From NCBI RefSeq assembly GCF_022637555.1, contig NZ_CP093342.1:248001-312000 (forward strand): a stretch of DNA of 64,000 nucleotides, written 5' to 3'. Under the pieces are notes generated by a model. That model did not search any database and was not told where the DNA came from. It saw only the letters and a list, made by a program, of their open reading frames with translations. A program made the translations under genes and the position numbers. The stretch comes from Microbacterium sp. H1-D42 (GTDB taxonomy: Bacteria; Actinomycetota; Actinomycetes; Actinomycetales; Microbacteriaceae). This document shows, one piece after another, positions 1 to 23,626 of the stretch. How positions within the stretch are numbered: the stretch's first letter is position 1; each line of letters begins with the position of its first letter.

Positions 1-1452
1 GGCCGGGGTGACGGTGAGCGATGTCACCGGCATCCACTCGCCATCGATCCGCACCTCGACGCGAGGGGCGGAGGCGAACCACCCGCCAAGTGAGTCCTGC
101 CCACCGGGGACGTAGATCAGTCTCGACATGGCGCGCGGCGACGCCCACTCGTAGCCCCAGACGTCGTCGCCGCTGCCGGGGCCGAACGCCGAGTCCTCGG
201 CGATCGTGCGATCGCCGTCGTTCAGCACGACTTCCTGCCCCTCGCGCACGCGTGACACCAGTGGCGTCGCGCCGTCGAGGGCGAGGTTGCCGGACGCCTC
301 GGCGACAGCATCCGATCCCGGGTCGAACACCACGCGACGCAGGCCGAAGCAGTACGCGCGGCCGCCGCGGGACGACGCCGGCACGAACCAGTTGCTCTGC
401 AGCCACATCTCGGTGCCGTCAGCCGAGAGGTACTTCGACGGCATCGTCGGGGCGTAGCCGCCATGCTTGGCGAGCGGTGAGCGTGGGCCGTGCCAGGGGA
501 AGTGCCCGAAGTCGTGACTGTGCAGCAGTCGCCACGGCCCCCAGGGTGTCGGCGCCTCGAAGAACTCGAAGGTGTACTCACTCCATGTCGAATACAGGTA
601 GCGGCCGAGGCCGGGGTTCCAGATCACGGACCCCTGCGCGATGCAGGTGAAGTCGTGCGCCGTCATGCCGAACGCGGGTGTCGGGTAGAAGCGCCGCTCG
701 TCGACGAGAACCGGCTGCTTGTCGGCGATCGCAGAGGACCAGGTCGGGCCCTCGTCAGACGCGTCGGCGTAGAACTCCCATGCGCCGATGTCCTGCACCC
801 GATCCGCGCGCACCCGCCCGAGGAACAGCTCGGTCGGATCCGGCACCCGCTTCGAGAACGAGGTGCGCCAGTTGCCGTCGATGCCGTAGGCGTAGACGTA
901 CTCGGATCCGCCGTTCGCCTGGCCGAGGTCGAGGAACATCACCGTCGTGAAGACGTGATCGTGGAACATCGGCTCATCCGGCCAGGTCCAGGTGCGGCCG
1001 AGGTCATCACTGCGGACGATCGTCGCCGTGGGCGCCTCGTTGAACGTGTCGGGGGAGTCTCCGCAGCGCAGATCCTGCACCGCGAGAAAGAGCACGTCGC
1101 GCCCGTCGAGGTTCACGCACACCATGCCGGTCGGCTTGCGGTTGAATCGCGCTGGATCCCAGATCGGGGCGACCGCGTCGCCGTCGGCGAGGCGCTCTCC
1201 GGTGAGTCCGGTCTGCGGCGTCCCATCGATCCGGTTCACCAGGATGTCGCTCCAGCCGTGCCGCGCGAAGCCGGTGCCGTCCCCGGCGGCGGCGTACAGC
1301 GCGCCGTCGGATGCCCAGGCCGATGGCCACAGGTCTCCGTCGCTGGCCGTGAGCACAGTGTTCGCCTGGTCGACGTGCGCGATTCGCAGTCGCAGGGGAG
1401 CGGATGCCGGATTCACCGGCGCCCCATCGATGATCGGGTGGCGTTCATTCAT
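1..1452 (-). CDS. GH183 (DUF4185) endo-D-arabinanase-like protein, partial
   Basis: This is an open frame that runs off the window; 484 residues are visible and the C-terminus is missing. It belongs to the DUF4185 family, now GH183, whose characterised members are endo-D-arabinofuranases that cut the D-arabinan of mycobacterial arabinogalactan. It shares with the next gene the acidic N-terminal block (SDGDLWP, then GDGTGF), the NxKPTGM block, YVYAYG, DPTELFLGRV, YLYSTWSEYTFEFFEAP and a C-terminal MWLQSN block. After about residue 375 an extra module begins (GYEW, PGG, GGWF, GEWMPV), reminiscent of discoidin-like jelly-roll carbohydrate-binding domains. No signal peptide is visible, unlike its paralogue. 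The ATG lies 8 nt inside the end of the preceding gene (ATGAATGA), so translation is coupled. Family call is firm; substrate is inferred from context. Confidence 0.85.
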   Translation of the reverse strand, partial: MNERHPIIDGAPVNPASAPLRLRIAHVDQANTVLTASDGDLWPSAWASDGALYAAAGDGTGFARHGWSDILVNRIDGTPQTGLTGERLADGDAVAPIWDPARFNRKPTGMVCVNLDGRDVLFLAVQDLRCGDSPDTFNEAPTATIVRSDDLGRTWTWPDEPMFHDHVFTTVMFLDLGQANGGSEYVYAYGIDGNWRTSFSKRVPDPTELFLGRVRADRVQDIGAWEFYADASDEGPTWSSAIADKQPVLVDERRFYPTPAFGMTAHDFTCIAQGSVIWNPGLGRYLYSTWSEYTFEFFEAPTPWGPWRLLHSHDFGHFPWHGPRSPLAKHGGYAPTMPSKYLSADGTEMWLQSNWFVPASSRGGRAYCFGLRRVVFDPGSDAVAEASGNLALDGATPLVSRVREGQEVVLNDGDRTIAEDSAFGPGSGDDVWGYEWASPRAMSRLIYVPGGQDSLGGWFASAPRVEVRIDGEWMPVTSLTVTPA

Positions 1453-2557
1453 CGGCAAGGCTCATCTCGCGCAGCCCGAACCAGTAGGACGTGATGCCGG
1501 CGGGGGCGCAGGGGCACACGTTGGACTGCAGCCACATCGTGGTCTCGTCGCCCGAGACGAACTTCGACGGAACCGTGGTCGCGTAGCCGCCGATGCGGTC
1601 GGCCTGCCACGGGTACTCGCCGAAGTCCTCTGACAGGATCGGGGTCCACGGTCCCCACGGCTGCGGCGCCTCGTAGAACTCGAACGTGTACTCGGTCCAC
1701 GAGGTGTACAGGTAGCGATCGCGCCCAGGCAGGTACGTCACCCCGCCCTGCGAGATCACGCTCATGTCGTACGCACTGCGGCGCTCGTCGACGAGCACGG
1801 GCTGCTTCTTCGCCACGTCGCGGGTCCAGATCGCGTCGGCGGCACCCGGTTCCCCGGCGTAGAACTCCCACTTCGAGCCGTCCTGCACGGCGGCGACCGG
1901 GACCCTGGCCAGGAACAGCTCAGTCGGATCGGGTACGACGTCGGTGAACGAGTCGCGCCAGTTGCCATCAAGGCCGTAGGCGTAGACGTAGTCCTTGTCC
2001 GGGCGGTGCTCCGCGTCCTTGCCGTAGTCGGCGAACCAGACTGTGGTGAAGACCCCGTCGGCGAACATCGGCGCCTTCTGATCCCATGACCAGGTCTCAC
2101 CGTGGTCGTCGCTGCGCGCGATCGTCGCGTTCGGCGCGGCATTGAAATCGGCCGCGAGATCCTGCACCGCCAGGTACAGCGTGTCTTCGATGCACAGCAT
2201 GCCGGTGGGCTTTCGGGTGACGCCCTCGTCGCTGCTCCAGACCTGACCGAGTGCGTCGCCGGTCGCGAGACCGGCGCCGGCGAGATCATCGGATGCCGGC
2301 GACCCGGTGATCCGGTTCATGACGATGTCGCTGGTGACGCTGCCGAACCCCGCCCCGTCGCCGTTCGCGGAGTAGAGCGCGTCATCGCCCGACCAGCAGT
2401 TCGGCCAGAGGTCTCCGTCGGAGACGCCGATCGCCGTCGGGGCGTCGGCGACGGATGCCGTCAGCGGGCCGGCATCCGCCGCTGCGCAGCCTGCCGTGAG
2501 AAGCAGACCCGCCGCAGCGATCGCTGCTCCGACGCCCTTCGCTCTGAGCGCGCTCAT
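1445..2557 (-). CDS. GH183 (DUF4185) endo-D-arabinanase-like lipoprotein
   Basis: This 370-residue protein is a paralogue of the neighbouring GH183. It begins with a lipoprotein signal: positive MSALRAKG, hydrophobic stretch, lipobox LTAGC at about residue 20, so it should be anchored outside the membrane. Family blocks follow: SDGDLWPNCW, NGDGAGFG, RKPTGML, YVYAYGLDGNW, DPTELFLARV, YLYTSWTEYTFEFYEAPQPWGPW, MWLQSN. The start was set at 2557 rather than 2593 because it places the signal peptide correctly and falls 1 nt after the SDR stop codon. Known family activity is endo-cleavage of D-arabinan. The inferred role is to cut the polymer at the cell surface before uptake. It sits third in the minus-strand operon. 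Confidence 0.88.
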   Translation of the reverse strand: MSALRAKGVGAAIAAAGLLLTAGCAAADAGPLTASVADAPTAIGVSDGDLWPNCWSGDDALYSANGDGAGFGSVTSDIVMNRITGSPASDDLAGAGLATGDALGQVWSSDEGVTRKPTGMLCIEDTLYLAVQDLAADFNAAPNATIARSDDHGETWSWDQKAPMFADGVFTTVWFADYGKDAEHRPDKDYVYAYGLDGNWRDSFTDVVPDPTELFLARVPVAAVQDGSKWEFYAGEPGAADAIWTRDVAKKQPVLVDERRSAYDMSVISQGGVTYLPGRDRYLYTSWTEYTFEFYEAPQPWGPWTPILSEDFGEYPWQADRIGGYATTVPSKFVSGDETTMWLQSNVCPCAPAGITSYWFGLREMSLADE

Positions 2558-2558
2558 C

Positions 2559-3308
2559 TCACCAGACCGTGTACCCGCCATCGGCGAGCACATCCGACCC
2601 GGTCATGAAGCTGGATGCGTCCGAGGCGAGGAACAGGATCACCGATGCCACCTCGTCGGGCGTGCCGAGGCGGCCCATCGGCGTGCGCTCGCGCCATGTC
2701 TCGCCGAGCGCCGGGTCATCGGCCAGCACCTGAGCCGTGAGATCGGTGCCGATGTAGCCAGGCGACACCGAGTTCACGCGCACTCCACGAGAGGCCCATT
2801 CGCCGGCGAGCGTCTTCGTGAGGTGCACGACGCCCGCCTTCGCGGCGTTGTAGCTGGACTGCTTCTGGGGGAAGTTGCTGATGCTGCCGCTCATCGATGC
2901 GATGTTCACGATCGCGCCGTGGCCGGCATCGAGCATGTGGCGCCCGAACGCCTGGCAGACGTAGAAGGTGCCGGACAGGTCGATGTCGACGACCCGCTGC
3001 CAGTCTGTGACGGTCATGTCCTCCGCGCTCGCCGAGCGGACGATCCCAGCCGCGTTGAGCACGATGTCGGGAGCACCCCTGCGCGCTACGAGGTCATCGG
3101 CGACGGATGTCACCGCGGCAGCATCCGTCACATCCACCTTCACGAACTCGACGTCGTCGAGGGCAGCGGTCATCGCGAGATCGAGCACGACGACCTGCGC
3201 GCCCTGTGCGAGGAACCGCCGCACGGTCGCCAGGCCGATGCCGCGCCCGCCGCCGGTGACGACGACGAGCTTCGCGCGCAGATCGGGATAATTCGCAGTC
3301 TCGGACAT
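2559..3308 (-). CDS. SDR-family oxidoreductase (D-arabitol/D-ribulose dehydrogenase-like)
   Basis: Classical short-chain dehydrogenase of 249 residues. The NAD(P)-binding motif TGGGRGIG spans residues 18-25, NAAG is at about 85-88, and the catalytic triad is S138/S140, Y153 and K157 (YNAAK). The stretch around residue 145 (SNFPQ) resembles D-arabitol 2-dehydrogenases and related polyol/sugar SDRs. In this operon a D-arabitol/D-ribulose or D-arabinose redox step fits, but SDR substrate specificity cannot be read from sequence. It lies 15 nt after the GH172 gene and 1 nt before the GH183 lipoprotein gene, so it is part of the same transcript. Confidence 0.82.
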   Translation of the reverse strand: MSETANYPDLRAKLVVVTGGGRGIGLATVRRFLAQGAQVVVLDLAMTAALDDVEFVKVDVTDAAAVTSVADDLVARRGAPDIVLNAAGIVRSASAEDMTVTDWQRVVDIDLSGTFYVCQAFGRHMLDAGHGAIVNIASMSGSISNFPQKQSSYNAAKAGVVHLTKTLAGEWASRGVRVNSVSPGYIGTDLTAQVLADDPALGETWRERTPMGRLGTPDEVASVILFLASDASSFMTGSDVLADGGYTVW

Positions 3309-3323
3309 GTATGCGTCCTGTCG

Positions 3324-4445
3324 TCAGCTCTGCGGTGCCCGCGGGGGCGTTGCGCCGATGTCAGGCACTGGGGCGGTACCTAAGTGAACCTCCAGGTCAT
3401 CGGCACTCGGCGACTTCGGGCGACGGGCAGTCGGCCGGTCGAGATAGAACATCGCGGTCGATGCGATGTCGTCGCGCAGGGGCAGGTAGCGCCAGCCGCT
3501 GCGCCAGCCGAGCGCCTGGATGTCGACCTTCGGAATGCCGGTGGCGAAGTGGATCGGGTCCTGCAGATGCCAGCGGTACATGCCGAACCGCTGCTGTGAG
3601 ACGTAGAGCCCGTCGGGGCGGATCACCTGGGGCATCCCGAGGTACGGCGTGGAGAACTCGGTGTAGCCCTTGCCAGGGATGTCGAAGTTCCACGCGCCGC
3701 CGAAGTAGTCTTCGGTGCCGGTGCCGGCAATGGTCGGGTAGTCGGTGTCGTCATCGAGGTAGAACTTGATCTCGCCCTCTCCCCACCAGCCATTGGAGTT
3801 CACACCCCACGCGATGTAGGTGCCGACGTACTGCCCTTCGCCCTCGATGCCCTCCAGGAGCACGTGCGGGGTGCGGTCCTCGAGCGGGTTCGACCGCCGC
3901 CACTGCGCGTGGAAGTAGCCGTCGTTCGAGTGGTCACCGCCGGTCTCGTAGGTGATCTGGTAGTACACCCGCACGTCGACGACGGAGGTGTTCTCGATCG
4001 TCATGCGGGCGCCGTCGCGGAACGGCATCGGCCAGTACGAGTTGAAGCCGCCGTGCGGGTTGGCCGCGATCGCCTGCGAGTTCACCTGTGCGAACACGCC
4101 CCAGCCGTTGCAGAAGAAGTCACCGTACGGCACTTCGACGGCGGGCTCCTCCGCACCGTCCCAGTACGCGCGCAGGATCAGCGTGCGCCAGTTGTCGGTG
4201 TGCGTCGTGATCCAGATGTGCGTGATCTTGCCTGCGCCGGCGATGGATGCCAGCTCGAACGTCTCACCGGCCTTGATGTCGACGCTGGGTGAGATCTTCC
4301 ACCCTGGGCCGAGATCGCGAGCGCAGTCTGCTCCGGTACCTTCGGTGGCGCGCGCCCCGCCACCGACCGCCCCGTCGAAGTTCTCGGGAGAGATCGAGCG
4401 CGTCTGCACCTTCCGCAGCGCGGAGATGGAATTGAGATCGGACAT
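3324..4445 (-). CDS. GH172 (DUF2961) exo-alpha-D-arabinofuranosidase-like
   Basis: This 373-residue DUF2961 protein belongs to GH172, which includes alpha-D-fructofuranosidase/difructose-anhydride enzymes and exo-alpha-D-arabinofuranosidases. Family blocks include THIWITT (75-81), YGDFFCNGWG (107-116), GEGEIKFYLDDD (222-233) and GTGTEDYFGG (241-250). Glutamates in the last two blocks (E223 or E225, and E245) are the likely catalytic pair, by analogy with the characterised family member. There is no signal peptide, so it probably acts in the cytoplasm on imported oligosaccharides. The start has an AGGAAG ribosome site 7 nt upstream. The frame extends much further upstream, but that part reads through the LacI gene and was discarded. 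It is first in a four-gene operon driven by the TTGCAA-N17-TACTGT promoter at 4485-4513. Confidence 0.9.
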   Translation of the reverse strand: MSDLNSISALRKVQTRSISPENFDGAVGGGARATEGTGADCARDLGPGWKISPSVDIKAGETFELASIAGAGKITHIWITTHTDNWRTLILRAYWDGAEEPAVEVPYGDFFCNGWGVFAQVNSQAIAANPHGGFNSYWPMPFRDGARMTIENTSVVDVRVYYQITYETGGDHSNDGYFHAQWRRSNPLEDRTPHVLLEGIEGEGQYVGTYIAWGVNSNGWWGEGEIKFYLDDDTDYPTIAGTGTEDYFGGAWNFDIPGKGYTEFSTPYLGMPQVIRPDGLYVSQQRFGMYRWHLQDPIHFATGIPKVDIQALGWRSGWRYLPLRDDIASTAMFYLDRPTARRPKSPSADDLEVHLGTAPVPDIGATPPRAPQS

Positions 4446-4484
4446 GCAGGCACTTCCTCGTGTCGGGCTTGTGGGTGTTCCGCC

Positions 4485-4534
4485 ACAGTATCGATTCGCC
4501 GCCCCTGTTGCAATCGATTTCAAGGGGATACTGT
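4485..4534. promoter_or_regulatory. Divergent promoter and LacI-type operator between GH172 and lacI genes
   Basis: A 16-bp near-palindrome TTGCAATCGATTTCAA lies at 4508-4523, and a second ATCGAT core at 4490-4495 is centred 23 bp away. The palindromic TTGCAA (4508-4513) serves as -35 for the minus-strand GH172 operon, with TACTGT at 4490-4485 after 17 bp. Facing the other way it lies 15 bp from TACTGT at 4529-4534 for the regulator. ACAGTATC (4485-4492) and GATACTGT (4527-4534) form an outer inverted repeat. The layout suggests that the adjacent LacI protein represses both directions; this is inferred from sequence. Confidence 0.75.
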
Positions 4535-4562
4535 TGTAAAGCGCAGAGGTGCAGGGGGATAT

Positions 4563-5540
4563 GTGGCCACGATCTACGACGTAGCAGAGCTCGCAGGAGT
4601 CTCTCCGGCGACCGTGTCGCGCGTGTTCAACGGCGTGGGGGTGTCGGCCACCAAGAGCGCGGCGGTGCGCGCCGCCGCCGAGCAGCTGAACTTCACCCCG
4701 AACCGCGCCGCCCGCACCCTGCGCCGGCAGAGCTCCGAGGTGATCGCGCTGATCATCCCCGACATCGAGAACCCCTACTTCACCGAGATGGCCCGCGGTG
4801 TGGAGGACGTCGCGAGCGAGGCCGGCTACTCGGTGGTGCTGTGCAATTCCGACGCCCAGCTCGACAAGGAGCTGACGTATCTGCGGATCGCGATCGCCGA
4901 GAACATGTCCGGGATCATCCTTGCGGCAGCATCCGACTCCACGGATCTCGACGAGATCCTCGCCACAGGCCGCCCCGTGGTGGCCGTCGACCGCGGGGTC
5001 GGCCACGATGTCGACGGGGTCGTGATGGCGAACCGTGATGCCGGGCGCCTCGCGACCGAGCATCTTCTGCAGACGTACCGCCGTGTCGCCTACATCGGCG
5101 GGCCGGAGCATATCGAGACCTCGTCCGATCGCGCCGAGGGGTGGCGGCTCGCGCACCGCGCTGCAGGTGCGGATGCGCCGCTGGAGCTGTTGCGGTTCTC
5201 GTCGTTCCGCGTCGATGGCGGTCGAGAGGCCATGGAAGAGCTGCTGGCCCTGCCCGAACCGCCCGATGCCGTGGTGGCCGGCAACAACCTCATCGGAGTC
5301 GGCGCGATCCAGGTGCTCACCGAGCACGCACTGACCCCGCCGAAGATCGGCGTCGCCGTGATCGGCGGACTGCCGTTCACCACGCTGTCGCCGAGCGCGG
5401 TGACGGTCGTGCGGCTACCCGCGCGGCACATGGGTGTGACGGCAGCGCGGATGCTGCTTGAGCGCATCCGCGGCGATGAGCAGCCGGCGCGCACGATCGT
5501 GCTGCGCAACGAACTGCAGGCGGCGTCAGCGCGGCCCTGA
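4563..5540 (+). CDS. LacI-family regulator of the D-arabinan locus
   Basis: LacI/GalR repressor of 325 residues. The N-terminal helix-turn-helix and hinge begin at once (TIYDVAELAGVSPATVSRVF, residues 2-21), followed by a periplasmic-binding-protein-like sensor domain from about residue 60 to the end (VIALIIPDIENPYF onward). The GTG start is preceded by an AGGGGGA ribosome site. The gene lies between two arms whose promoters contain ATCGAT-centred palindromes, the kind of site LacI proteins bind. It most likely represses both arms until an arabinan-derived sugar binds. The ligand is unknown; D-arabinose, D-ribulose or an oligosaccharide are candidates. Confidence 0.9.
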   Translation: MATIYDVAELAGVSPATVSRVFNGVGVSATKSAAVRAAAEQLNFTPNRAARTLRRQSSEVIALIIPDIENPYFTEMARGVEDVASEAGYSVVLCNSDAQLDKELTYLRIAIAENMSGIILAAASDSTDLDEILATGRPVVAVDRGVGHDVDGVVMANRDAGRLATEHLLQTYRRVAYIGGPEHIETSSDRAEGWRLAHRAAGADAPLELLRFSSFRVDGGREAMEELLALPEPPDAVVAGNNLIGVGAIQVLTEHALTPPKIGVAVIGGLPFTTLSPSAVTVVRLPARHMGVTAARMLLERIRGDEQPARTIVLRNELQAASARP

Positions 5541-5656
5541 GCCGCCGATCCGGCTCGCAGAGTCAGGCGCCCTTTCGGCGAGCGCATCGACTTCGCGTCC
5601 TGTGCCTCGCTGGGCGCCCAGCTCTGCGTGGACGTTGTGTGCGCTGCGCGAGAGCC

Positions 5657-5686
5657 TTGCAACATGAAATCGATTTCGCGTACGCT
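5657..5686 (+). promoter_or_regulatory. Promoter and LacI operator of the kinase-GH116-isomerase operon
   Basis: TTGCAA (5657-5662) and TACGCT (5681-5686) are spaced by 18 bp. The perfect 12-bp palindrome GAAATCGATTTC (5666-5677) lies inside the spacer and matches the operator at 4508-4523. Binding there would block RNA polymerase. The remaining upstream sequence (5541-5656) shows nothing else recognisable. Confidence 0.78.
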
Positions 5687-5717
5687 GGGTGCAGCTTGTC
5701 ATATCAAGGAGGACGAC

Positions 5718-7220
5718 ATGCGCTGCACCCTTGGGGTGGATATCGGAACGTCGAGCAGCAAGGGCGTGCTCGTCGCCGAAGACGGGTCGATCCTCGCTTC
5801 GGCGACGCGCGCACACGCCGTCGACCGACCCCACACGGGGTGGGTCGAGATGGACGCGCACATCTGGTGGGACGAGTTCGTCGCGATCACGCGTGAGCTG
5901 TCTGCCGCGGTGTCGGATGCTGAGATCACTGCCGTCGGCGTGAGCGGCATGGGCCCGTGCGTCCTGCTCGCAGACGACGACGACGAGCCCGTGCGCCCCG
6001 CCATTCTCTACGGGGTCGACACCCGAGCCACCGAGCAGATCGCCTGCCTCACCGACGAGCTCGGCGAGGACGAGATCACCCGCATCGGCGGCTCCACCCT
6101 CACCTCGCAGGCCGCCGGCGCGAAGATCGCCTGGGTCGCGGACGAGGAGCCGGACGCCTGGGCCCGAGCGAAGCGCCTGTTCATGCCCGCATCCTGGCTG
6201 GCACGCAAGCTCACGGGGGCGTACGTGCTCGACCACCAGTCGGCCAGCCAGACCTCGCCGCTGTACGACATCGAGAACGAGCACTGGCACGACCCGTGGT
6301 GGCAGCGCTATGCGGCCCCCATCGCCCAGCCGCAGCTGACCTGGGCCGGCAATATCGCTGGAGCGGTCACGCAGGCAGCATCCGACCTCACCGGCATCCC
6401 CGAGGGCACGCCCGTCATCACCGGCACCATCGACGCATGGTCGGAGGCGGTCAGTGTCGGCGCGCACGAAGTGGGCGACCTCATGCTGATGTACGGCACC
6501 ACGATGTTCCTGATCGCGACCGGCGAGCAGACGCTGCGCACCCCCTCGATGTGGACCACTGCCGGAGCCTTCGCCGGCACCCGCAACCTCGCCGGTGGGC
6601 TGTCGACCTCAGGGGCGCTGACCGCGTGGCTCAAGGACCTGACCGACGCCGACTACCCGCAGCTGCTCGCCGAAGCGGCCGAGTCCGGCCCCGGCGCGCG
6701 CGGACTCGTCATGCTGCCGTACTTCGCGGGGGAGCGCACCCCGATCCAGGACCCGGATGCCCGCGGCGTCATCGCCGGGCTCACACTGAGCCACGGGCGC
6801 GGAGACCTCTACCGGGCAGCCCTCGAGGCCACAGCGCTCGGCGTGCGCCACAACGTCGAGACCATGCGGGCGGCCGGCGCCGACATCCGCCGCATCGTCG
6901 CCGTCGGCGGCGGCACGCAGGGGCGGCTCTGGCTGCAGATCGTGTCGGATGCCACCGGCCTCGTCCAAGAGGTGCCGGCCACCACGATCGGCGCCAGCTA
7001 CGGAGCGGCCTTCCTGGCAGCATCCGCCGTCGCCGACAGCGCATCCGGTGCTGTGCGGCCGCAGATCGGCGACTGGAACCCCGTCGCCGACACCATCACG
7101 CCCGATCCGGCCGCGAAGCCCGTCTACGACGCCCTCTTCGACCGCTACCTGCGGCTCTACGACGGCACGCGCGACGTCGTGCACGAACTCGCCGACACGC
7201 AGCGCAAGGAGCGATCATGA
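5718..7220 (+). CDS. FGGY-family carbohydrate kinase (probable D-ribulokinase)
   Basis: FGGY kinase of 500 residues. The N-terminal phosphate-binding motif is VDIGTSSSKG, the probable catalytic base is D239 in TGTIDAWSE, and a second ATPase-fold domain contains FAGERTP, ALEATALGVRHNVE and VAVGGGTQG. The ATG was chosen over longer frames because a perfect AAGGAGG lies 5 nt upstream and the family N-terminus starts here. Relatives phosphorylate xylulose, ribulose, fuculose or glycerol. Beside a D-arabinose-type isomerase, D-ribulose to D-ribulose 5-phosphate is the most economical reading. First gene of a three-gene operon; its stop overlaps the next start (ATGA). Confidence 0.88.
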   Translation: MRCTLGVDIGTSSSKGVLVAEDGSILASATRAHAVDRPHTGWVEMDAHIWWDEFVAITRELSAAVSDAEITAVGVSGMGPCVLLADDDDEPVRPAILYGVDTRATEQIACLTDELGEDEITRIGGSTLTSQAAGAKIAWVADEEPDAWARAKRLFMPASWLARKLTGAYVLDHQSASQTSPLYDIENEHWHDPWWQRYAAPIAQPQLTWAGNIAGAVTQAASDLTGIPEGTPVITGTIDAWSEAVSVGAHEVGDLMLMYGTTMFLIATGEQTLRTPSMWTTAGAFAGTRNLAGGLSTSGALTAWLKDLTDADYPQLLAEAAESGPGARGLVMLPYFAGERTPIQDPDARGVIAGLTLSHGRGDLYRAALEATALGVRHNVETMRAAGADIRRIVAVGGGTQGRLWLQIVSDATGLVQEVPATTIGASYGAAFLAASAVADSASGAVRPQIGDWNPVADTITPDPAAKPVYDALFDRYLRLYDGTRDVVHELADTQRKERS

Positions 7221-9784
7221 CGCGGCGCACCCGCCCGATCCCGCACACCGCCCAGCGTGCCGCCTTCCCGCTCGGCGGCATCGGCACCGGCAACGTCTCA
7301 CTGGGAGCGCGGGGTGAACTGCGCGACTGGGAGTTCGAGAACCTTCCGGACAAGGGGCGCACCAACCCGCGCTCGTTCTTCGCCATCCACGCTGCGCCCG
7401 AAGGCGGCGAGGCCGTCACCCGCGTGCTCGAGGCCCGCCACACCGGTCGCCATGACCTGGATGCCGGGTACAGCTTCGACGACCTTGCCGGCCTGCCCAG
7501 ACTCGATGCCGCAGAGCTGCACGGCGAGTACCCGATCGCCGAGATCGACTTCACCGACAGCGCCCTCCCCGTCGAGGTCTCGCTTCGCGCGTTCACCCCA
7601 CTCGTGCCGCTGGACCCTGACGCCTCCGGCATTCCGGCCGCGGTGCTGCGGTACCGGGTCACCAACCCCGGCGCCACCGCGGTGACCGTCACCGTCGTCG
7701 GCAGCATGAGCCACACCGCCGGACGAGGCACCCCCGGCCCTGACGCACCGTGGGGCATGCGCGGGACGCAGTCCGTGCGCTGGCGTGAGGACGAGGGCAT
7801 CCGAGGTCTCGACTTCGACATCGATCTGCCGCACGACGATCCGGGCTACGGCACCATGAGCCTCACCACGACGGATGCGTCGACGACGGTCAAGCCGCAG
7901 TGGGTGACCAGCTACTGGCCTGACGGCGGACGCCTGTTCTGGGACGACCTCACCGCAGACGGCCTTCTGTCCGCCGAGCCGCGGCTGACGCTCGAGGACA
8001 AGCCGCGTGGTCTGTTCGCCGAGCGCGACGCCGACGCGGGTGCCGTGCTCACCGAAGAGCAGATGATGGCGAAGCTGCCCCGCGTGCGCACCGGCTCGCT
8101 CGGCATCGTGCACACCCTCGCCCCCGGAGAGGCGCGCGACTTCGAATTCGTGCTGTCGTGGAGCTTCCCGAACCGTCGGCGCGGCTGGCACGGGCACATC
8201 GTGTTCGATGACGCTCTGGAGGACGGAACGCCCGACCTGCGCGATGAGCTCGATCCGATCGTGCGCAATCACTACGCCACGCTGTGGGCAGACGCGTGGG
8301 CGGCGGGCGCGCACCTGCACCGTGAGCTGCCGGCGCTGGAAGCGGCGTCGGATGCCTTCGTCGAGGCCCTCTACGGCGGCACGCTCGACCCGGTGCTCGC
8401 CGATGCGATCGGGGCGAACGTGGCTGCGGTCCGCTCGACCACCTGCTTCGTGCTCGAATCGCCCACGCCCGAACTCGGCGAGGGCCCGGTCTTCGCGGCC
8501 TGGGAGGGATCGTTCGATCACGGCGGGTCCTGCGAGGGCACGTGCACGCACGTCTGGTCGTACGCGCAGACGGTGGCCTGGCTGTTCCCGAGCCTCGAGC
8601 GCAGCGCGCGTCGCGCAGAGTTCCTGCTCGAGACCGACGAGGCCGGCGCGCAGAAGTTCCGCGGTAACCGCATCTGGGGCGCTCCGCGCTGGTTCATCGG
8701 CCCCGCGGTCGACGGGCAGCTCGGCACCTTCCTGCGGCTGCACCGCGAGTGGCGCTTCTCGGGCGACGATGACTTCCTGCGCGAGCTGTGGCCCGCCGCC
8801 GCCCGCAGTCTGGAGTACGCGATCCGCGAGTGGGATCGGGACGGCGACGGACTGCTCGACGGCGAGCTGCACAACACCTACGACATCGAGTTCCACGGGA
8901 TCGACCCGCTCGCGAACGGCTTCCAGCTGGCGGCGCTGCGCGCCGGAGCCCGCATGGCCGAGCACCTCGGCGAGGCCGATCGCGCGCAGCGCTGGTCGGC
9001 GCGTGCCGACGAAGCGGCAGACGCGATGGAGCGGATGCTGTGGAACGGCGAGTTCTACCGGCAGCTGATCGACGACGTCGACGCACACCGGTACCAGTAC
9101 GGCGATGGCGTCCTCTCGGACCAGCTGCTCGGCCAGTTCCACGCCTTCCTCGGCGGCCTCGGCTACCTGCTGCCAGAGGAGCACGTGCGCTCGGCGCTGG
9201 GTGCGATCGTGCGCCACAACCACCGCGACGACCTGCGCGCACATGAGAGCACGCAGCGCGTCTACGCGCTGAACGACGAGGGGGGCCTGCTGCTGGCTTC
9301 CTGGCCGAACGGCGGCCGGCCCGCGCTGCCTTTCGTCTACGCCGACGAGGTCTGGACCGGCATCGAACACCAGGTCGCGGCGACGCTGCTCTTCGCGGGC
9401 ATGCCCGACGAGGCGCTGACGATCGAACGCAGCCTGCGGGCACGATACGACGGCGAGCACCGCAATCCGTGGAACGAGATCGAGTGCGGCAACCACTATG
9501 CGCGCTCGCTCGCGTCGTGGGCGCTGCTCATCGCCGCCAGCGGCGCGCAGTGGGACGGTGTCAGCCGCACACTCGCGTTCGACCCGGTGGACGCCGATGG
9601 CGCCCAGCGCTTCCTCTTCACGACCGGCACCGGCTGGGGTCGCGTCGACATCCGGCCCGCCTCGATCACCCTGCACCTCGACGGCGGTGATCTCGACCTC
9701 GCGCAGCTGGTGCTGCGCGGCGAGGTCGTCGGCCGCAGCATCCGACTCTCTGCCGGCGGCACTCACACCGTCAGCCTTCCCTGA
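7217..9784 (+). CDS. GH116 glycosidase (probable exo-beta-D-arabinofuranosidase)
   Basis: This 855-residue GH116 protein has an N-terminal beta-rich domain (FPLGGIGTGNVSLGARGELRDWEFEN near residue 16) and a C-terminal alpha/alpha-barrel ending in the family block NPWNEIECGNHYARS. By alignment from memory with GBA2-type enzymes, the nucleophile would be E440 (CEGTCTHVW) and the acid/base D556 (HNTYDIEF). GH116 is usually annotated as glucosylceramidase, but one branch from Microbacterium is an exo-beta-D-arabinofuranosidase, and this locus carries all its published partners. No signal peptide is visible, so a cytoplasmic finishing enzyme is likely. The start ATG overlaps the kinase stop by 4 nt; the longer open frame upstream is only a shadow of the kinase. 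Confidence 0.88.
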   Translation: MTRRTRPIPHTAQRAAFPLGGIGTGNVSLGARGELRDWEFENLPDKGRTNPRSFFAIHAAPEGGEAVTRVLEARHTGRHDLDAGYSFDDLAGLPRLDAAELHGEYPIAEIDFTDSALPVEVSLRAFTPLVPLDPDASGIPAAVLRYRVTNPGATAVTVTVVGSMSHTAGRGTPGPDAPWGMRGTQSVRWREDEGIRGLDFDIDLPHDDPGYGTMSLTTTDASTTVKPQWVTSYWPDGGRLFWDDLTADGLLSAEPRLTLEDKPRGLFAERDADAGAVLTEEQMMAKLPRVRTGSLGIVHTLAPGEARDFEFVLSWSFPNRRRGWHGHIVFDDALEDGTPDLRDELDPIVRNHYATLWADAWAAGAHLHRELPALEAASDAFVEALYGGTLDPVLADAIGANVAAVRSTTCFVLESPTPELGEGPVFAAWEGSFDHGGSCEGTCTHVWSYAQTVAWLFPSLERSARRAEFLLETDEAGAQKFRGNRIWGAPRWFIGPAVDGQLGTFLRLHREWRFSGDDDFLRELWPAAARSLEYAIREWDRDGDGLLDGELHNTYDIEFHGIDPLANGFQLAALRAGARMAEHLGEADRAQRWSARADEAADAMERMLWNGEFYRQLIDDVDAHRYQYGDGVLSDQLLGQFHAFLGGLGYLLPEEHVRSALGAIVRHNHRDDLRAHESTQRVYALNDEGGLLLASWPNGGRPALPFVYADEVWTGIEHQVAATLLFAGMPDEALTIERSLRARYDGEHRNPWNEIECGNHYARSLASWALLIAASGAQWDGVSRTLAFDPVDADGAQRFLFTTGTGWGRVDIRPASITLHLDGGDLDLAQLVLRGEVVGRSIRLSAGGTHTVSLP

Positions 9785-9808
9785 ACCACCTCACAACGGA
9801 GAACACCC

Positions 9809-11440
9809 ATGGCCTACACCCTGCCGACATCGGCCCAGCGCCCGGCATCCGCCCCGAAGACCGCCTACCTGATCACCTCGGGCGACCTTCGAGAGTCGGC
9901 CAACACCGCAGGCTGGCCCACCCAGGTCGAGCTCGAGGCCGGCGTGACCGGCGTGCTCGAGGGGCTCGGCTGGAGCGTCATCCGCCCGTTCGGCGTCGAC
10001 CCGGCTACCGGCCACGGATTCATCTCAAGCCAACGCATGGGCATGGAGGTCTTCACGAAGATCCCCACAGACGCGCCGCTGGTCGTCGCGATCGCCAACT
10101 GGCAGTACTCGCACCACGTGCTCGCAGGCCTGCGCACCCACGAGGGCCCGATCCTCACCGTCGCCAACTTCGCCGGCGACTGGCCTGGCCTCGTCGGACT
10201 GCTCGGTCTGAACGCGGGACTCACCAAGATGGGCAAGTCGTACGCCACCACGTGGTCGGTCGACTTCACCGACGAGTGGTTCACCGACGGCATCCGCGAG
10301 TGGACCGAGACCGGAGCCATCGTGCACGACGACTCGCACGTGCGTCCGCTGCCCGCGCTGCCCGACAGCCCGGAGAAGCAGCTCGGTGAGGCGCTCGCCG
10401 CGCAGCTGCGCGCCGACAAGGCCATCATCGGCGTCTTCGACGAGGGCTGCATGGGCATGTACAACGCCATCTTCGATGACGAGCTGCTCAACCACACCGG
10501 CATCTATAAGGAGCGCCTGTCGCAGTCGGCGCTCTACGCCGAGATGCTCGAGGTCGCCGAGGCCGAGGCCGACGCCGCCTATGACTGGCTGATCGACCAC
10601 GGCATGACATTCCAGTACGGCGAGGATGCCGAGACCGAGCTCACCCGTGAGCAGGTGCAGTGGCAGATGAAGATGTACATCGCCGCCCTGCGGATCGCCG
10701 ATGACTTCGGGTTGGATGCTGTCGGCATCCAGTACCAGCAGGGTCTGAAGGACCTCGTGCCGGCATCCGACCTCGCTGAGGGCATCCTGAACACCACCGA
10801 GCGTCCGCCGGTGCTCTCGCGCGACGGCTCGCGCGTGCTGCACGAGGGTCGCGCGTTCCCGCACTTCAACGAGGCCGACGAGGGTGTCGCGGTCGACGCG
10901 CTGGTCACCGACCGGGTCTGGCGCGCGATGGGCCTCGTGCCAGACAACACGCTGCACGATGTGCGCTGGGGTGAGGACCACGACGGCGAATTCGTCTGGG
11001 TGTACGAGATCTCGGGCTCGGTGCCCGCGTCGCACCTCGGCGGCTGGGACAAGGCCGAGGGCTGGCGCCAGGGTCACGTGTTCTTCCCCGCCGGCGGTGC
11101 GACGATCAACGGCGTCTCCAAGCCCGGTGAGGTCGTGCTGTCGCGTGTCTTCATCGCCGACGGCGTACTGCAGGCCGATATCTTCCGGGCATCGGTCGTC
11201 GAGCTTCCCGAGGCCGAGACGCAGCGCCGCAAGGACGCCACCAACCCCGAGTGGCCGATCGCGCACGTCGTGCTGCACGGGCAGAGCCGTGACCAGTTCA
11301 TGGCGCGGCACAAGGCCAACCACGCGCAGCTCGTCTACGCCCCCGACGCCGAGACGGCCGACAAGGCCCTGATCGCCAAGGCCGCGATGTTCGCCGGCAT
11401 GGGCATCCAGGTCAACCTGGTGGGCGACGTCCGCGCCTGA
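9809..11440 (+). CDS. L-fucose/D-arabinose isomerase-family protein
   Basis: This 543-residue sugar isomerase belongs to the FucI/AraA-like superfamily. Blocks seen are NFAGDWPGLVGLLGLNAG, DEGCMGMYNAIFDDELLN, GIQYQQGLKDLVPASDLAEG and, near the C-terminus, KANHAQLVYA, which corresponds to the metal- and substrate-binding His region of FucI. FucI-type enzymes also act on D-arabinose, which matches L-fucose in its reactive stereocentres, giving D-ribulose. With the FGGY kinase two genes upstream this makes a two-step route to D-ribulose 5-phosphate. It follows GH116 by 24 nt with a CGGAG ribosome site and ends the operon. It converges on a TetR gene with only 5 nt between stops. Confidence 0.85.
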   Translation: MAYTLPTSAQRPASAPKTAYLITSGDLRESANTAGWPTQVELEAGVTGVLEGLGWSVIRPFGVDPATGHGFISSQRMGMEVFTKIPTDAPLVVAIANWQYSHHVLAGLRTHEGPILTVANFAGDWPGLVGLLGLNAGLTKMGKSYATTWSVDFTDEWFTDGIREWTETGAIVHDDSHVRPLPALPDSPEKQLGEALAAQLRADKAIIGVFDEGCMGMYNAIFDDELLNHTGIYKERLSQSALYAEMLEVAEAEADAAYDWLIDHGMTFQYGEDAETELTREQVQWQMKMYIAALRIADDFGLDAVGIQYQQGLKDLVPASDLAEGILNTTERPPVLSRDGSRVLHEGRAFPHFNEADEGVAVDALVTDRVWRAMGLVPDNTLHDVRWGEDHDGEFVWVYEISGSVPASHLGGWDKAEGWRQGHVFFPAGGATINGVSKPGEVVLSRVFIADGVLQADIFRASVVELPEAETQRRKDATNPEWPIAHVVLHGQSRDQFMARHKANHAQLVYAPDAETADKALIAKAAMFAGMGIQVNLVGDVRA

Positions 11441-11445
11441 CGCGC

Positions 11446-12015
11446 TCAGCGGGGGAGCAGGCCGTCGACCAGCGCGTCGACGACGTCGTCGGTCGGGGTG
11501 TCCGGATCGATCGATGACGTGAGCCTGTCGAAGACGAGGCCCTCGATCGCGTAGTGGAACAGGGCGATCTCCGCTCGCCCGCCGGGGAGTCCGGCGTTCT
11601 CGTTGAACGCCACGTCGGCGTCGAGGCCGGCGCGCTGCCGCTCGCCGAGGGACGCGGCGAGTTCAGGTCGGCGCGCTGCCTCGAGCCGCAGCTCGTACAG
11701 CGCGAGCGTGACCTCGCGGTTCGTCGTCAGTCGCCGCACGATGTCGCGCACGTAGTCTGCGAACAGCTCGCGGCTCGGCTGTGCGGATGCCCGTATCGCG
11801 AGATCCTCCGGCGTCGGAGCCAGGCGCTGCCAGATCCGCTCGAATAGCCCGGTGATGAGCTGCTCGCGGCTGCGGAAGTAGTTCGATGTCGTGCCGGTGG
11901 GCACCCCCGCCTCGGCGTCGACCGCGCGATGCGTGAGTCCCCGCGAGCCCTCTCGAGCCAGGACGGTGATCCCCGCATCCGCGAGCTCAATGCGTCGAGC
12001 GTCGTTCTTCGCCAT
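11446..12015 (-). CDS. TetR-family transcriptional regulator
   Basis: TetR regulator of 189 residues. The N-terminal DNA-binding domain includes ITVLAREGSRGLTHRAVDAEAG and PTGTTSNYF (residues 16-47), followed by an all-helical ligand domain. The start has a leaderless arrangement: TAGGGT (12027-12022) followed by 6 nt and ATG. It is divergent from the RibD-C-like reductase at 12089. The dyad at 12031-12079 in the gap is its probable operator, so it likely controls itself and the reductase. Confidence 0.88.
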   Translation of the reverse strand: MAKNDARRIELADAGITVLAREGSRGLTHRAVDAEAGVPTGTTSNYFRSREQLITGLFERIWQRLAPTPEDLAIRASAQPSRELFADYVRDIVRRLTTNREVTLALYELRLEAARRPELAASLGERQRAGLDADVAFNENAGLPGGRAEIALFHYAIEGLVFDRLTSSIDPDTPTDDVVDALVDGLLPR

Positions 12016-12030
12016 GGCAGGACCCTAGCG

Positions 12031-12079
12031 CAATCACGACAGTTGTTGTAGTTTCTAACCACGACAACTGTTGTGATTG
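12031..12079. promoter_or_regulatory. TetR-type operator dyad
   Basis: Two 16-nt arms, CAATCACGACAGTTGT (12031-12046) and ACAACTGTTGTGATTG (12064-12079), are inverted copies with one mismatch and a 17-nt spacer. Each arm contains the shorter near-palindrome ACAACWGTTGT. The left arm abuts the TetR -10 box and the right arm ends at the ribosome site of the reductase, so binding would affect both genes. Confidence 0.75.
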
Positions 12080-12088
12080 GAGAACACG

Positions 12089-12673
12089 GTGCGAGAACTT
12101 GTCTACTTCATCGCTGTCACCCTCGACGGATTCATCGCCGGCCCAGGGGATCAGTTCGATGGATTCGTCTACGAGGGCGACCACGTCGCGGCGATCGGTG
12201 AGAAGTACCGCGGCGCGGTGCCCACGCACCTCGCCGAGTCAGTGGGGCTCGCCACCGAAGGAGGCCCGTTCGACACGGTGCTGATGGGCTGGAACACCTA
12301 CTCGATGGGCCTGCCGGACGCACCGAGCCCGTATCGGCACCTGCGCCAGGTCGTCTTCACGCGCACCCACGCCGCACCGGCCGAAGCGGAGGGTGTCGAG
12401 TTCACCGACCGCGACCCGGTCGAGGTGGTGCGCGAGCTCAAGGCGGAGGAGGGCGGTGCGATCTGGCTCTGCGGGGGTGCCGCGCTCGCGGCGCAGCTCG
12501 TCGACGAGATCGATCGCCTCGCGCTCAAGGTGCACCCGGTGCTGTTCGGATCCGGCATCCCAGTGTTCGGCGCCCGCCCGTACGCGCCAGAGCGCTGGCA
12601 TCCGCTCTCGACCACCGCGTTCACGTCCGGTGTGACGCTGGCCGAGTACACACGCCTGGCCCCGAAGGGATAG
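12089..12673 (+). CDS. RibD C-terminal/dihydrofolate reductase-fold protein
   Basis: This 194-residue protein has the RibD_C fold. It starts LVYFIAVTLDGFIAG, carries the nucleotide-binding segment VLMGWNTYSMG and the GGAALAAQLVDEIDRL block, and ends with the usual LHPVLFGSG-type strand (VHPVLFGSGIPVFG). Such proteins are NADPH-binding reductases of unknown substrate, distinct from true FolA. The GTG start at 12089 has GGAG 6 nt upstream; a TTG 12 nt earlier is less likely. It is probably repressed by the divergent TetR. Confidence 0.82.
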   Translation: MRELVYFIAVTLDGFIAGPGDQFDGFVYEGDHVAAIGEKYRGAVPTHLAESVGLATEGGPFDTVLMGWNTYSMGLPDAPSPYRHLRQVVFTRTHAAPAEAEGVEFTDRDPVEVVRELKAEEGGAIWLCGGAALAAQLVDEIDRLALKVHPVLFGSGIPVFGARPYAPERWHPLSTTAFTSGVTLAEYTRLAPKG

Positions 12674-12693
12674 GCGCGGCGCCAGGTCGGCGG

Positions 12694-13287
12694 CTACGCC
12701 GCTGGATGGGCGAGGGATGCCACGGCCTGGGCGGCCGCGCGGACGACGTCCTCGGCGAGGGCGTCGTCGCGGTCGACCAGCCAGGTCATCGTCAACCCGT
12801 CGGTCATGGTGAGCAGCAGGCGGGCGGCGACCGGCACCGGCACCGACCACTCGTGGCCGGTGTGCGTGGCGGCGAGCTCGAGCATCGCGACGGCCATCCG
12901 GGTGTACTCGGCGTACTGCTGGCGGGCCAGCTCGGGGCGCTCGCGCAGTGCATGCTGCGTGAGTTCGAGCATGGCCTGTTCGCGGGAGGGATCGGATCGC
13001 AGGTGCGCCAGGTAGCCGCTGAGGCCCTCCGTCAGCAGCTCTGTCAGTGAGCGTCCGACGAGCTCCGCCGGCGCGATCGCCTTCTCCTCCTTCGCCAGCA
13101 CCTCGGTGATGAGCACGTCGATCAGCTCGTCGCGCGAGGTGAACGCGTAGTGGAAGCTCGCCAGAGACATGCCGGCCTCGGCGACGATCGTCCGCGTGGA
13201 CGCGCTGCTCAGGCCCCGTGCGGAGATGACCCGCAGGGTCGCGGCGATCAGCGCCTTGCGCCTCTCTTCAACCGGTGTGTGTGCCAT
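12694..13287 (-). CDS. TetR-family transcriptional regulator
   Basis: TetR regulator of 197 residues. The helix-turn-helix region is VISARGLSSASTRTIVAEAGMSLASFHYAF (residues 19-48). The long C-terminal domain resembles the subgroup with MLELTQHALRERPELA. It is divergent from the GH1 beta-glucosidase with 115 bp between. The 18-bp dyad at 13337-13354 is its likely binding site, suggesting local control of the glycosidase. The inducer is unknown. Confidence 0.88.
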   Translation of the reverse strand: MAHTPVEERRKALIAATLRVISARGLSSASTRTIVAEAGMSLASFHYAFTSRDELIDVLITEVLAKEEKAIAPAELVGRSLTELLTEGLSGYLAHLRSDPSREQAMLELTQHALRERPELARQQYAEYTRMAVAMLELAATHTGHEWSVPVPVAARLLLTMTDGLTMTWLVDRDDALAEDVVRAAAQAVASLAHPAA

Positions 13288-13336
13288 GGCATCCCCTCAC
13301 TTGCTCTGGCTCGATTCTGCTCCTAAGGTAGCGGAA

Positions 13337-13354
13337 GTGGGTCAAGTGTCCCAC
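13337..13354. promoter_or_regulatory. Probable TetR operator upstream of GH1 gene
   Basis: GTGGGTCAAGTGTCCCAC is an interrupted palindrome with 5-bp arms (GTGGG, CCCAC) around 8 bp, in the gap between the TetR gene and the beta-glucosidase. Assignment to this regulator rests only on position. Confidence 0.5.
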
Positions 13355-13402
13355 ATGAGATTTCAGATGCGGACGCAGCGGTCCGCAATACGGGAGACGA
13401 CG

Positions 13403-14830
13403 ATGCCCCTTCACAACCGACCCAGCGCCGAGGCGCTCGGCCGAAGCCTACCCGCTGGTTTCGTGATCGGCACAGCCACCGCGGCCGCGCAGATCGAGGG
13501 AGCAACCCAGGTCGGCCGCCGCACGCCGAGCGTATGGGACGCGTTCAGCGCCGAACCGGGCCGCGTGCAGGACGGCTCCACGACCGCCGTCACCGCCGAC
13601 CACTTCCACCGTCACGTCGAGGACGTGCGGTTGATGAGCGAGCTCGGCGCCGACGCCTACCGCTTCTCGCTCGGCTGGACGCGTCTGCAGCCGAACGGCC
13701 GCGGCCCGCTCGACCCCGAGGGCGTCGCGTTCTACGACCGCCTGCTCGATGAGCTGCACGAATCCGGCATCACTCCGTTCGTCACCATCTCGCACTGGGA
13801 CCTGCCCGTCGAATACGAGCAGGGCTGGCTCGACCGCGACACCGCGCACCGCCTCGGCGAATTCGCGGCCCTCGTCGGCGAGCGCTTCGGCGACCGCGTC
13901 GACTCGTGGATCACCATCAACGAACCCGCCACCGTGACGCTGAACGGCTACGCGCTCGGGCTGCACGCCCCCGGTCACTCGCTGCTGTTCGATGCTCTGC
14001 CGACCGTGCATCACCAACTGCTCAGTCACGGGCTGGCCGTGCAGGCGCTGCGGGCCGCCGGCGTGCGCGGCCAGGTGGGCATCACGAACGTGCACACCCC
14101 GGTCGTCGCCGCGAGCGGCAGCCCCGAGGATGCCATGATGGCCGCCCTCTTCGATGTCGTGCACAACCGCGTCTTCGCCGATCCCGTGCTGCTCGGCCAC
14201 TACCCGCAGGTGCCAGACGAGCTGGCGCCCATGTTCGGCGCGTTCGCCGAGGTGCCGGCCGAAGACCTCGCGGTCATCTCGCAGCCGCTGGACTTCTACG
14301 GCCTCAACTACTACATGCCCACCCGGATCGCCGCCGGCGCCGGGTCGGCCGAGAGCCCAGACGGCACCAGCGAGGCGATGACCGAGCTGCCGTTCCGCCT
14401 GGAGCCGTTCGACGAATTCCCGACCACCGGGTTCGGCTGGCCGATCTCGCCGGAGTTCTTCGGCACCGCGCTCGCCGAGGTGCAGGAGCGCTACGGCGAC
14501 GTGCTGCCCCCTGTCTACATCACCGAGAACGGCGCGAGCTTCGCCGACGAGATCGATGCCGAGACTGGCATCGTCGAGGACGATGAGCGCATCGGCTACC
14601 TCGCGGGACACCTCGAGGCCGCGATCACCGCCACGGCACCCGGCGGTGTCGCAGAGGGAATCGATCTGCGTGGGCTGTTCGTGTGGTCGCTGATGGACAA
14701 CTGGGAGTGGGCGACGGGATTCACGCAGCGCTTCGGCCTGCTTCGGGTCGACTTCGAGACCCTGGAGCGCACGCCGAAGGCGTCGTTCAACTGGCTGCAG
14801 AGCGCGCTGCGCGCCCGCGACGAGGTCTGA
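13403..14830 (+). CDS. GH1 family beta-glucosidase
   Basis: GH1 glycosidase of 475 residues, the normal length for the family. The N-terminus has FVIGTATAAAQIEGA. The acid/base is E174 in TINEP and the nucleophile is E375 in ITENG, with YRFSLGWTRLQP and the aglycone-side SLMDNWEW block also present. The frame is open 234 nt further upstream, but the ATG at 13403 has GGGAG before it and matches the family start. No signal peptide: it should hydrolyse imported beta-glucosides or disaccharides in the cytoplasm. Probably controlled by the divergent TetR. Confidence 0.92.
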   Translation: MPLHNRPSAEALGRSLPAGFVIGTATAAAQIEGATQVGRRTPSVWDAFSAEPGRVQDGSTTAVTADHFHRHVEDVRLMSELGADAYRFSLGWTRLQPNGRGPLDPEGVAFYDRLLDELHESGITPFVTISHWDLPVEYEQGWLDRDTAHRLGEFAALVGERFGDRVDSWITINEPATVTLNGYALGLHAPGHSLLFDALPTVHHQLLSHGLAVQALRAAGVRGQVGITNVHTPVVAASGSPEDAMMAALFDVVHNRVFADPVLLGHYPQVPDELAPMFGAFAEVPAEDLAVISQPLDFYGLNYYMPTRIAAGAGSAESPDGTSEAMTELPFRLEPFDEFPTTGFGWPISPEFFGTALAEVQERYGDVLPPVYITENGASFADEIDAETGIVEDDERIGYLAGHLEAAITATAPGGVAEGIDLRGLFVWSLMDNWEWATGFTQRFGLLRVDFETLERTPKASFNWLQSALRARDEV

Positions 14831-23581: not shown

Positions 23582-23587
23582 GCATCC

Positions 23588-23626
23588 ACCGTAGTCTTCC
23601 TCGAACCGCCGGCTTGCTGACATGAT
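23588..23626. promoter_or_regulatory. Divergent leaderless promoters, FGE and K+ channel
   Basis: TACGGT (23593-23588, minus) plus 6 nt leads to the FGE ATG, and CATGAT (23621-23626, plus) plus 6 nt leads to the channel GTG. The two -10 boxes are only 27 bp apart, so the -35 regions must interleave and the two promoters probably compete. Confidence 0.55.

Follow-up and report, generated by a model that had tools for sequence, protein, structure and literature searches.

In the 64,000-nucleotide stretch of Microbacterium sp. H1-D42 analysed here (the window, positions 248001-312000 of a single-contig 3.66-Mb chromosome), we identified the right half of a D-arabinan utilisation locus. We read it, with a probability of roughly 0.8, as a system for D-arabinan uptake and catabolism under repression by a LacI-family regulator, with two divergent GH183 genes, J and K (gene letters as in Table 1), forming a separate branch. 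D-arabinan is a hallmark polymer of mycobacterial walls, and few D-arabinan-cutting enzymes are available as tools for analysing arabinogalactan and lipoarabinomannan. A first-pass annotation had listed at window positions 1..11440 two DUF4185 proteins, a GH172, a GH116, an SDR, an FGGY kinase, an isomerase and a LacI regulator in two divergent groups; all of them are indeed present, as J-K-L-M on the minus strand and N-O-P-Q on the plus strand. It had also taken this segment for the full system; in fact the locus spans genome positions 236305-259440 and extends about 11.7 kb to the left of the window edge, with about half of its genes outside the window, including an EndoMA1 orthologue (gene I), the importer genes and a third GH183 gene. 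The GH183, GH172 and ExoMA2-type GH116 genes are thus clustered with an importer made of a solute-binding protein (SBP) and permeases, an isomerase and a kinase, the combination that defines this type of locus. Gene content, orthology, operator conservation, clade and residue pattern were computed.

Sequence comparison shows the locus to be the orthologue of one already described for D-arabinan in Microbacterium arabinogalactanolyticum JCM 9171 (MIAR_33170-33320). That locus is induced by D-arabinose and by mycobacterial extract (PMC10509167), and the core of ours is not new. The best tblastn segments on the contig of that species (L007) gave identities of 94% for GH172, 93% for the isomerase, 89% for LacI, 85% for EndoMA1, 83% for GH116, 81% for the SDR, 80% for the kinase and 79% for K. 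Both loci have the gene orders GH172-SDR-K-EndoMA1 and LacI-kinase-GH116-isomerase. The pathway proposed by the first-pass annotation was right, with its core already published; the intracellular steps, which it had presented as an addition, belong to that core as well, since the isomerase and the kinase were placed in the M. arabinogalactanolyticum locus by PMC10509167. In ours, unlike in that locus, K and EndoMA1 are separated by gene J, and an EndoMA2-like GH183 is absent; in addition, an ATP-binding cassette (ABC) exporter pair stands here between the importer genes and EndoMA1, and neither the L007 nor the L121 stretch contains a match to it. A Bacteroidota system, the GH183/GH172 locus of Dysgonomonas gadei, uses the same enzyme families on the same polymer, and no J/K-type gene is described for it in the sections of PMC10115798 consulted. 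What we add to the published core is an operator with its regulon and the altered GH183 pair J/K; we found no report of either in the literature searched (open-licence papers without their supplements), and the word LacI is absent from the main text of PMC10509167.

The two putative exo-enzymes were compared with proteins of known structure. The best PDB match of the GH172 (gene M) is ExoMA1 (8IC8, 844 bits; next match 114 bits); its DUF2961 domain is present and the equivalent of Asn253, the residue that blocks fructofuranose in ExoMA1 (PMC10509167), is kept. Similarly, the GH116 (gene P) matches best ExoMA2 (8IC6, 1638 bits; next match 97 bits), and the equivalents of Glu431, Asp557, His446 and Arg483 are kept (own residues 430, 556, 445 and 482). 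The clade check suggested earlier for these enzymes thus places them with ExoMA1 and ExoMA2 and not with glucosidases or fructofuranosidases.

The isomerase (gene Q) had been called FucI-type. At the sequence level only the C-terminal fucose-isomerase model of Pfam matched, no PDB sequence was found at E 0.001, and a profile search gave 3A9R with E 0.11 in the C-terminal part. The predicted fold, on the other hand, is that of FucI/AraA, aligned over model residues 182-543. We have assigned it by fold because sequence searches gave weak matches or none; with 17-19% identity to FucI/D-arabinose isomerase (PDB 1FUI, 3A9R) it would form a distant branch. In alignment A2, E355 and D384 are invariant and H505 nearly so; by their motifs these are candidates for the Glu, Asp and His metal ligands of FucI/AraA. 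For the kinase (gene O), the start at 5718 was chosen from a ribosome-binding-site-like AAGGAGG before the ATG; it scores 309 bits against the XylB NCBIfam model (cut-off 380), no NCBIfam model passing its cut-off, and we propose it as a putative D-ribulokinase. The best NCBIfam model for the SDR (gene L) is the GolD/DthD family, below its cut-off. A fixed SDR-K pair was considered and rejected, as in the examined stretch of the L011 locus the SDR is present and K is not.

The GH172/LacI spacers of related loci share AATCGATTTCA. A search of the entire genome (3.66 Mb) with the derived operator pattern GNAATCGATTTC gave four sites, every one within the locus, and 0 sites for the reversed pattern. 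From the spacing and strand of the genes we propose the units A, B, C-D-E-F, M-L-K-J-I, N and O-P-Q, upstream of which these sites are located; no separate site precedes the exporter pair G-H. When two mismatches were allowed, the window gave 4 matches for 0.85 expected, two of which, inside the GH116 gene, look like chance. LacI (gene N) has a helix-turn-helix and a sugar-binding domain, and a conserved palindrome with a central CG, a trait of LacI-family operators, is located at its own promoter. From this position, the palindrome type and the co-conservation described below, we infer that gene N binds the operator.

We then compared 97 loci (80 plus 20 fetched, less the duplicates L007/L121, L015/L119 and L021/L123) and defined core loci as those whose GH172 exceeds 65% and whose LacI exceeds 55% identity. 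The operator was present in 46/46 core loci, with a total of 132 sites over 926 kb; the 51 non-core loci together had 2 over 899 kb, and the reversed control gave 0 in both sets; an earlier count of 49 loci and 142 sites includes the three duplicate contigs twice. It was found in 44/44 divergent GH172/LacI spacers and is the same in M. arabinogalactanolyticum (L007) and G790 as here. Among 295 genomes of the genus, from lists transcribed by eye, at least three operator hits on a strand occurred in 56/58 GH116-positive genomes (E 1e-100) but in only 14/237 GH116-negative ones (p = 2.6e-44, a value that ignores genome relatedness and is no true probability). The assemblies of the two GH116-positive exceptions, G791 and G846, are incomplete (79% and 76%). 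In seven of the 14 GH116-negative genomes there is a GH172 of at least 84%, so that the operator found variant loci missed by the GH116 search at 1e-100. Among them, G820 (L138) was already in the set of fetched loci, and the six others (L143-L148) all show the operator. In five of these six the GH116 reaches no more than 31-34% identity and the importer is a different one; the sixth is a 6.3-kb contig. Another of the 14, G868, has a 49% GH172 and no operator in the stretch fetched. The operator can consequently serve as a sequence handle for locating D-arabinan loci.

Loci L143-L146, L148, L129, L136 and L138 have in common a close GH172 (and LacI where the stretch reaches it), the operator and a distant GH116 (31-37%), often with another importer, and make up a second, variant type of D-arabinan locus. 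A 7.7-kb contig of a metagenome-assembled genome classed as Fimbriimonadaceae (L036) carries an actinobacterial-looking piece of the locus, with GH172 at 83%, isomerase at 72% and three operators, possibly by mis-binning or transfer.

The two GH183 genes of the window had been taken for the reported endo-enzymes; this did not hold. By sequence, J and K are neither EndoMA1 nor EndoMA2 and form a separate DUF4185 clade, whose members have other D-arabinan genes nearby in every locus examined. They are 56% identical to each other and score only 57.0 (K) and 39.8 bits (J, barely over) against PF13810, whose cut-off is 39.5. Compared with EndoMA1 (PDB 8HHV/8IC1), the place of the essential Glu243 is occupied by Gln (Gln282 in K) in 36/36 J/K proteins, versus Glu in 56/56 ordinary GH183s; each of four alignments gives Gln for all its J/K proteins. 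W138 and P141 are each kept in 44/56 ordinary GH183s and in 0/36 J/K (P141 in 4/36 in another alignment), and the Leu292 place is Gly in 36/36 J/K. The acid/base Asp51 is Asp in all J/K by each of the four alignments. The nucleophile Asp33 aligns to the invariant D61 of K in two alignments (33/33); in the two others its column lies three residues upstream of D61, beside an invariant DGD. An Arg is found at or beside the Arg198 place, and D61 and D79 of K, as well as E301 and D269, are invariant in 33/33. The predicted model of K is a five-bladed propeller whose best match is EndoMA1, at about 20% identity.

Regarding the counts, one residue count used 29 + 20 ordinary GH183s, to which seven more distinct ones were later added to give 56. 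Fifteen weak DUF4185-like open reading frames (31-57 bits) stand outside both counts; poorly aligned, they show T (7), E (7) or A (1) and no Gln in the Glu243 column. The J/K genes of L179/L193, L191 and L192 were not added, those of their loci being already counted.

K is lipoprotein-like. In J, a hydrophobic N-terminus and lipobox were found in 0/10 proteins examined, a difference from EndoMA1, and its C-terminal extension of about 150 residues has no Pfam match. This comparison used a loose lipobox pattern and dropped J of L126 and L135 and K of L138 (coverage below 85%); the K starts of L120, L125 and L134 were set too far upstream. By gene order (33200 GH172, 33220, 33230 EndoMA1), K probably corresponds to MIAR_33220, a homologue of which was absent from the putative D-arabinan loci of the other Microbacterium species compared in PMC10509167.

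Here we found K-type genes also in M. barkeri, M. murale, an Agromyces and metagenome-assembled genomes. J/K occur in 21/295 Microbacterium genomes, 20 of which are also GH116-positive, two of them (G692, G824) on a 35-37% GH116 only. In all 20 J/K loci fetched from other genomes, GH172 and LacI lie on the fetched stretch as well. Of the 46 core loci, 23 have K, which in 19 of them adjoins GH172 in the same orientation, and 11 have J. A search for K in the family gave 6/299 genomes: our own, G280 and G203 strongly, and three weakly (E 9e-8 to 5e-4). In G203 (same family; L202) a J-type gene accompanies GH172 (79%), LacI (61%), isomerase (70%), kinase (56%) and four operators, and no GH116 was found in its 20-kb stretch. 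In G1069 (same class) it stands beside GH172 (61%), GH183s, an importer and one operator, and in G1105 (same order; L198) a J-like gene lies beside GH172 (71%). G1040 has a J-type gene at a contig end with LacI, GH183 and two operators, and no GH172 within 20 kb. A phylum search returned J/K from none of 396 genomes beyond our own at 1e-20, with few candidates scored per genome (three in the matches listed); it is a lower bound, because the class sample and the search among relatives gave the J-like genes of G1069, G1040 and G1105.

From these data we propose a scheme in which enzyme activities, operon structure, LacI-operator binding, the inducer, and the location and substrate of J and K are deduced. 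Exported GH183s (I, the EndoMA1 orthologue, and B) would cut mycobacterial arabinogalactan and lipoarabinomannan, with K also acting outside the cell, and the SBP-permease ABC importer C-D-E would take up the oligosaccharides, probably driven by the only MalK-type ATPase of the genome (at 1018370). In the cytoplasm, GH172 and GH116 would release D-arabinose from alpha and beta ends, the isomerase would convert it into D-ribulose and the FGGY kinase into D-ribulose 5-phosphate, feeding the pentose phosphate pathway. By way of TGNAATCGATTTCA-type operators LacI would keep the units repressed, D-arabinose or one of its derivatives being the signal that relieves this. A surface-located K and a cytoplasmic J may act on short, branched or capped D-arabino-oligosaccharides left by the ordinary GH183s, J handling those that GH172 and GH116 cannot. 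We tentatively suggest, at somewhat less than even odds, that J and K are a new GH183 subfamily with another active-site logic (Gln for Glu243), K being at the surface and J cytoplasmic, that would hydrolyse a part of D-arabinan removed by no characterised enzyme (for example branched or capped termini), under a D-arabinan-specific LacI regulon findable by its operator alone. If so, J would be, to our knowledge, the first intracellular GH183. The clade is a candidate for an activity missing from the present enzyme set. It also offers a test of what Glu243 does in GH183, because nature has here exchanged a residue whose mutation leaves EndoMA1 with hardly any activity.

Several observations weigh against these proposals. 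The E243Q mutant of EndoMA1 is nearly dead (PMC10509167), and for this reason ordinary D-arabinan may not be cut by J/K; MIAR_33220 was insoluble and went unassayed in that work. The exact Asp33 and Arg198 places in J/K vary with the alignment. None of the four GH183s of this genome is EndoMA2-like, and the kinase and SDR models both stay below curated cut-offs. The operator is not exclusive to the system: at least one hit occurs in 132/295 genomes of the genus, including 75/237 GH116-negative ones, and six of the 14 GH116-negative genomes with at least three hits are without GH172 at 1e-20. Finally, the G1105 locus has no operator match.

Alternatively, J and K may be ordinary endo-D-arabinanases that tolerate the Gln and bring added capacity, neighbouring invariant acids such as E301 or D269 taking over. 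We regard this as possible and rather unlikely: the invariance of these two acids, the retention of Asp51, the DGD and the Arg, the GH183 fold of the K model and the occurrence of J/K in loci both with and without an EndoMA2-like gene speak for it, while the strict Gln/Glu partition, the loss of W138 and P141 and the Gly at the Leu292 place argue otherwise, and J, without export signal, should not meet the polymer outside the cell. It is less probable that both are non-hydrolytic, K as a surface D-arabinan-binding lipoprotein and J as a cytoplasmic sensor or binding protein. The loss of a residue essential in EndoMA1 and the additional C-terminal stretch of J fit such a role, but the invariance of D61 and D79 would be unusual for a pseudoenzyme.

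Two other explanations concern the whole locus. A role in wall modification and/or degradation was suggested for mycobacterial GH183s (PMC10115798), and the GH183 genes could likewise remodel the wall of the host itself. This is very improbable and we rejected it: they stand with an importer, an isomerase and a kinase, and no Arabino_trans_C/Emb-type (PF14896) match was found in this genome, with a positive C. glutamicum control (one family, one genome). The same absence fits the scavenging of foreign arabinan that the first-pass annotation had put forward. That the locus serves another furanoside or glucoside (fructan, difructose anhydride, glucosylceramide) is hardly credible; the GH172 and GH116 families do include such enzymes (alphaFFase1; glucosylceramidases), but on the PDB scores and the kept Asn253, His446 and Arg483 equivalents we rejected another substrate for genes M and P.

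Table 1. Genes and operator sites of the D-arabinan locus (positions with two dots refer to the window)
Feature	Window position	Genome position	Strand	Assignment and evidence
Gene A		236305-237288		327 aa; no family match in Pfam, NCBIfam, PDB
Operator site		237292		between A and B
Gene B	left of window			GH183, 388 aa; PF13810 283 bits
Operator site		238517		before likely SBP start
Gene C	left of window			solute-binding protein (SBP)
Genes D and E	left of window			permeases; E matched in other loci too
Gene F		241938-242573		211 aa, P-loop-like start, after second permease; no Pfam/NCBIfam match
Genes G and H		242671-246302		heterodimeric ABC exporter pair between importer genes and EndoMA1 orthologue
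Gene I	left of window			EndoMA1 orthologue; 960 bits to PDB 8HHV
Gene J	1..1458 (cut by window edge)	247857-249458	minus	divergent GH183/DUF4185, 533 aa
Gene K	1445..2593		minus	divergent GH183/DUF4185, lipoprotein-like, 382 aa as called; later ATG at 2557
Gene L	2559..3308		minus	SDR-family dehydrogenase; PF13561 214 bits
Gene M	3324..4445		minus	DUF2961/GH172, putative exo-alpha-D-arabinofuranosidase, ExoMA1 orthologue by sequence
Operator GCAATCGATTTC	4510..4521	252510	plus	between GH172 and LacI; conserved in related spacers
Gene N	4563..5540		plus	LacI-family regulator; PF00356 + PF00532
Operator GAAATCGATTTC, perfect palindrome	5666..5677	253666	plus	upstream of kinase unit; conserved in related loci
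Gene O	5718..7220 (open reading frame from 5628)		plus	FGGY sugar kinase; PF00370 + PF02782 (on the frame from 5628)
Gene P	7217..9784		plus	GH116, putative exo-beta-D-arabinofuranosidase, ExoMA2 orthologue by sequence
Gene Q	9809..11440		plus	D-arabinose isomerase candidate, FucI/AraA fold, 543 aa

Among the remaining genes, A is found in 17/46 core loci (identity of at least 45%) and here shares an operator region with B, and homologues of F occur in 12/46 core loci. ABC exporter pairs like G-H are also seen in L013, L026, L027 and L129, and one half in L036. To the right of the locus (window 11446-14830) lie two TetR regulators, a RibD_C-domain protein and a GH1 enzyme; this flank is probably outside the regulon, because no operator match occurs there. 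Further on, the minus strand carries two adjacent sulfatases and a formylglycine-generating-enzyme-like protein (window 17790-20114, 20243-22585 and 22670-23623).

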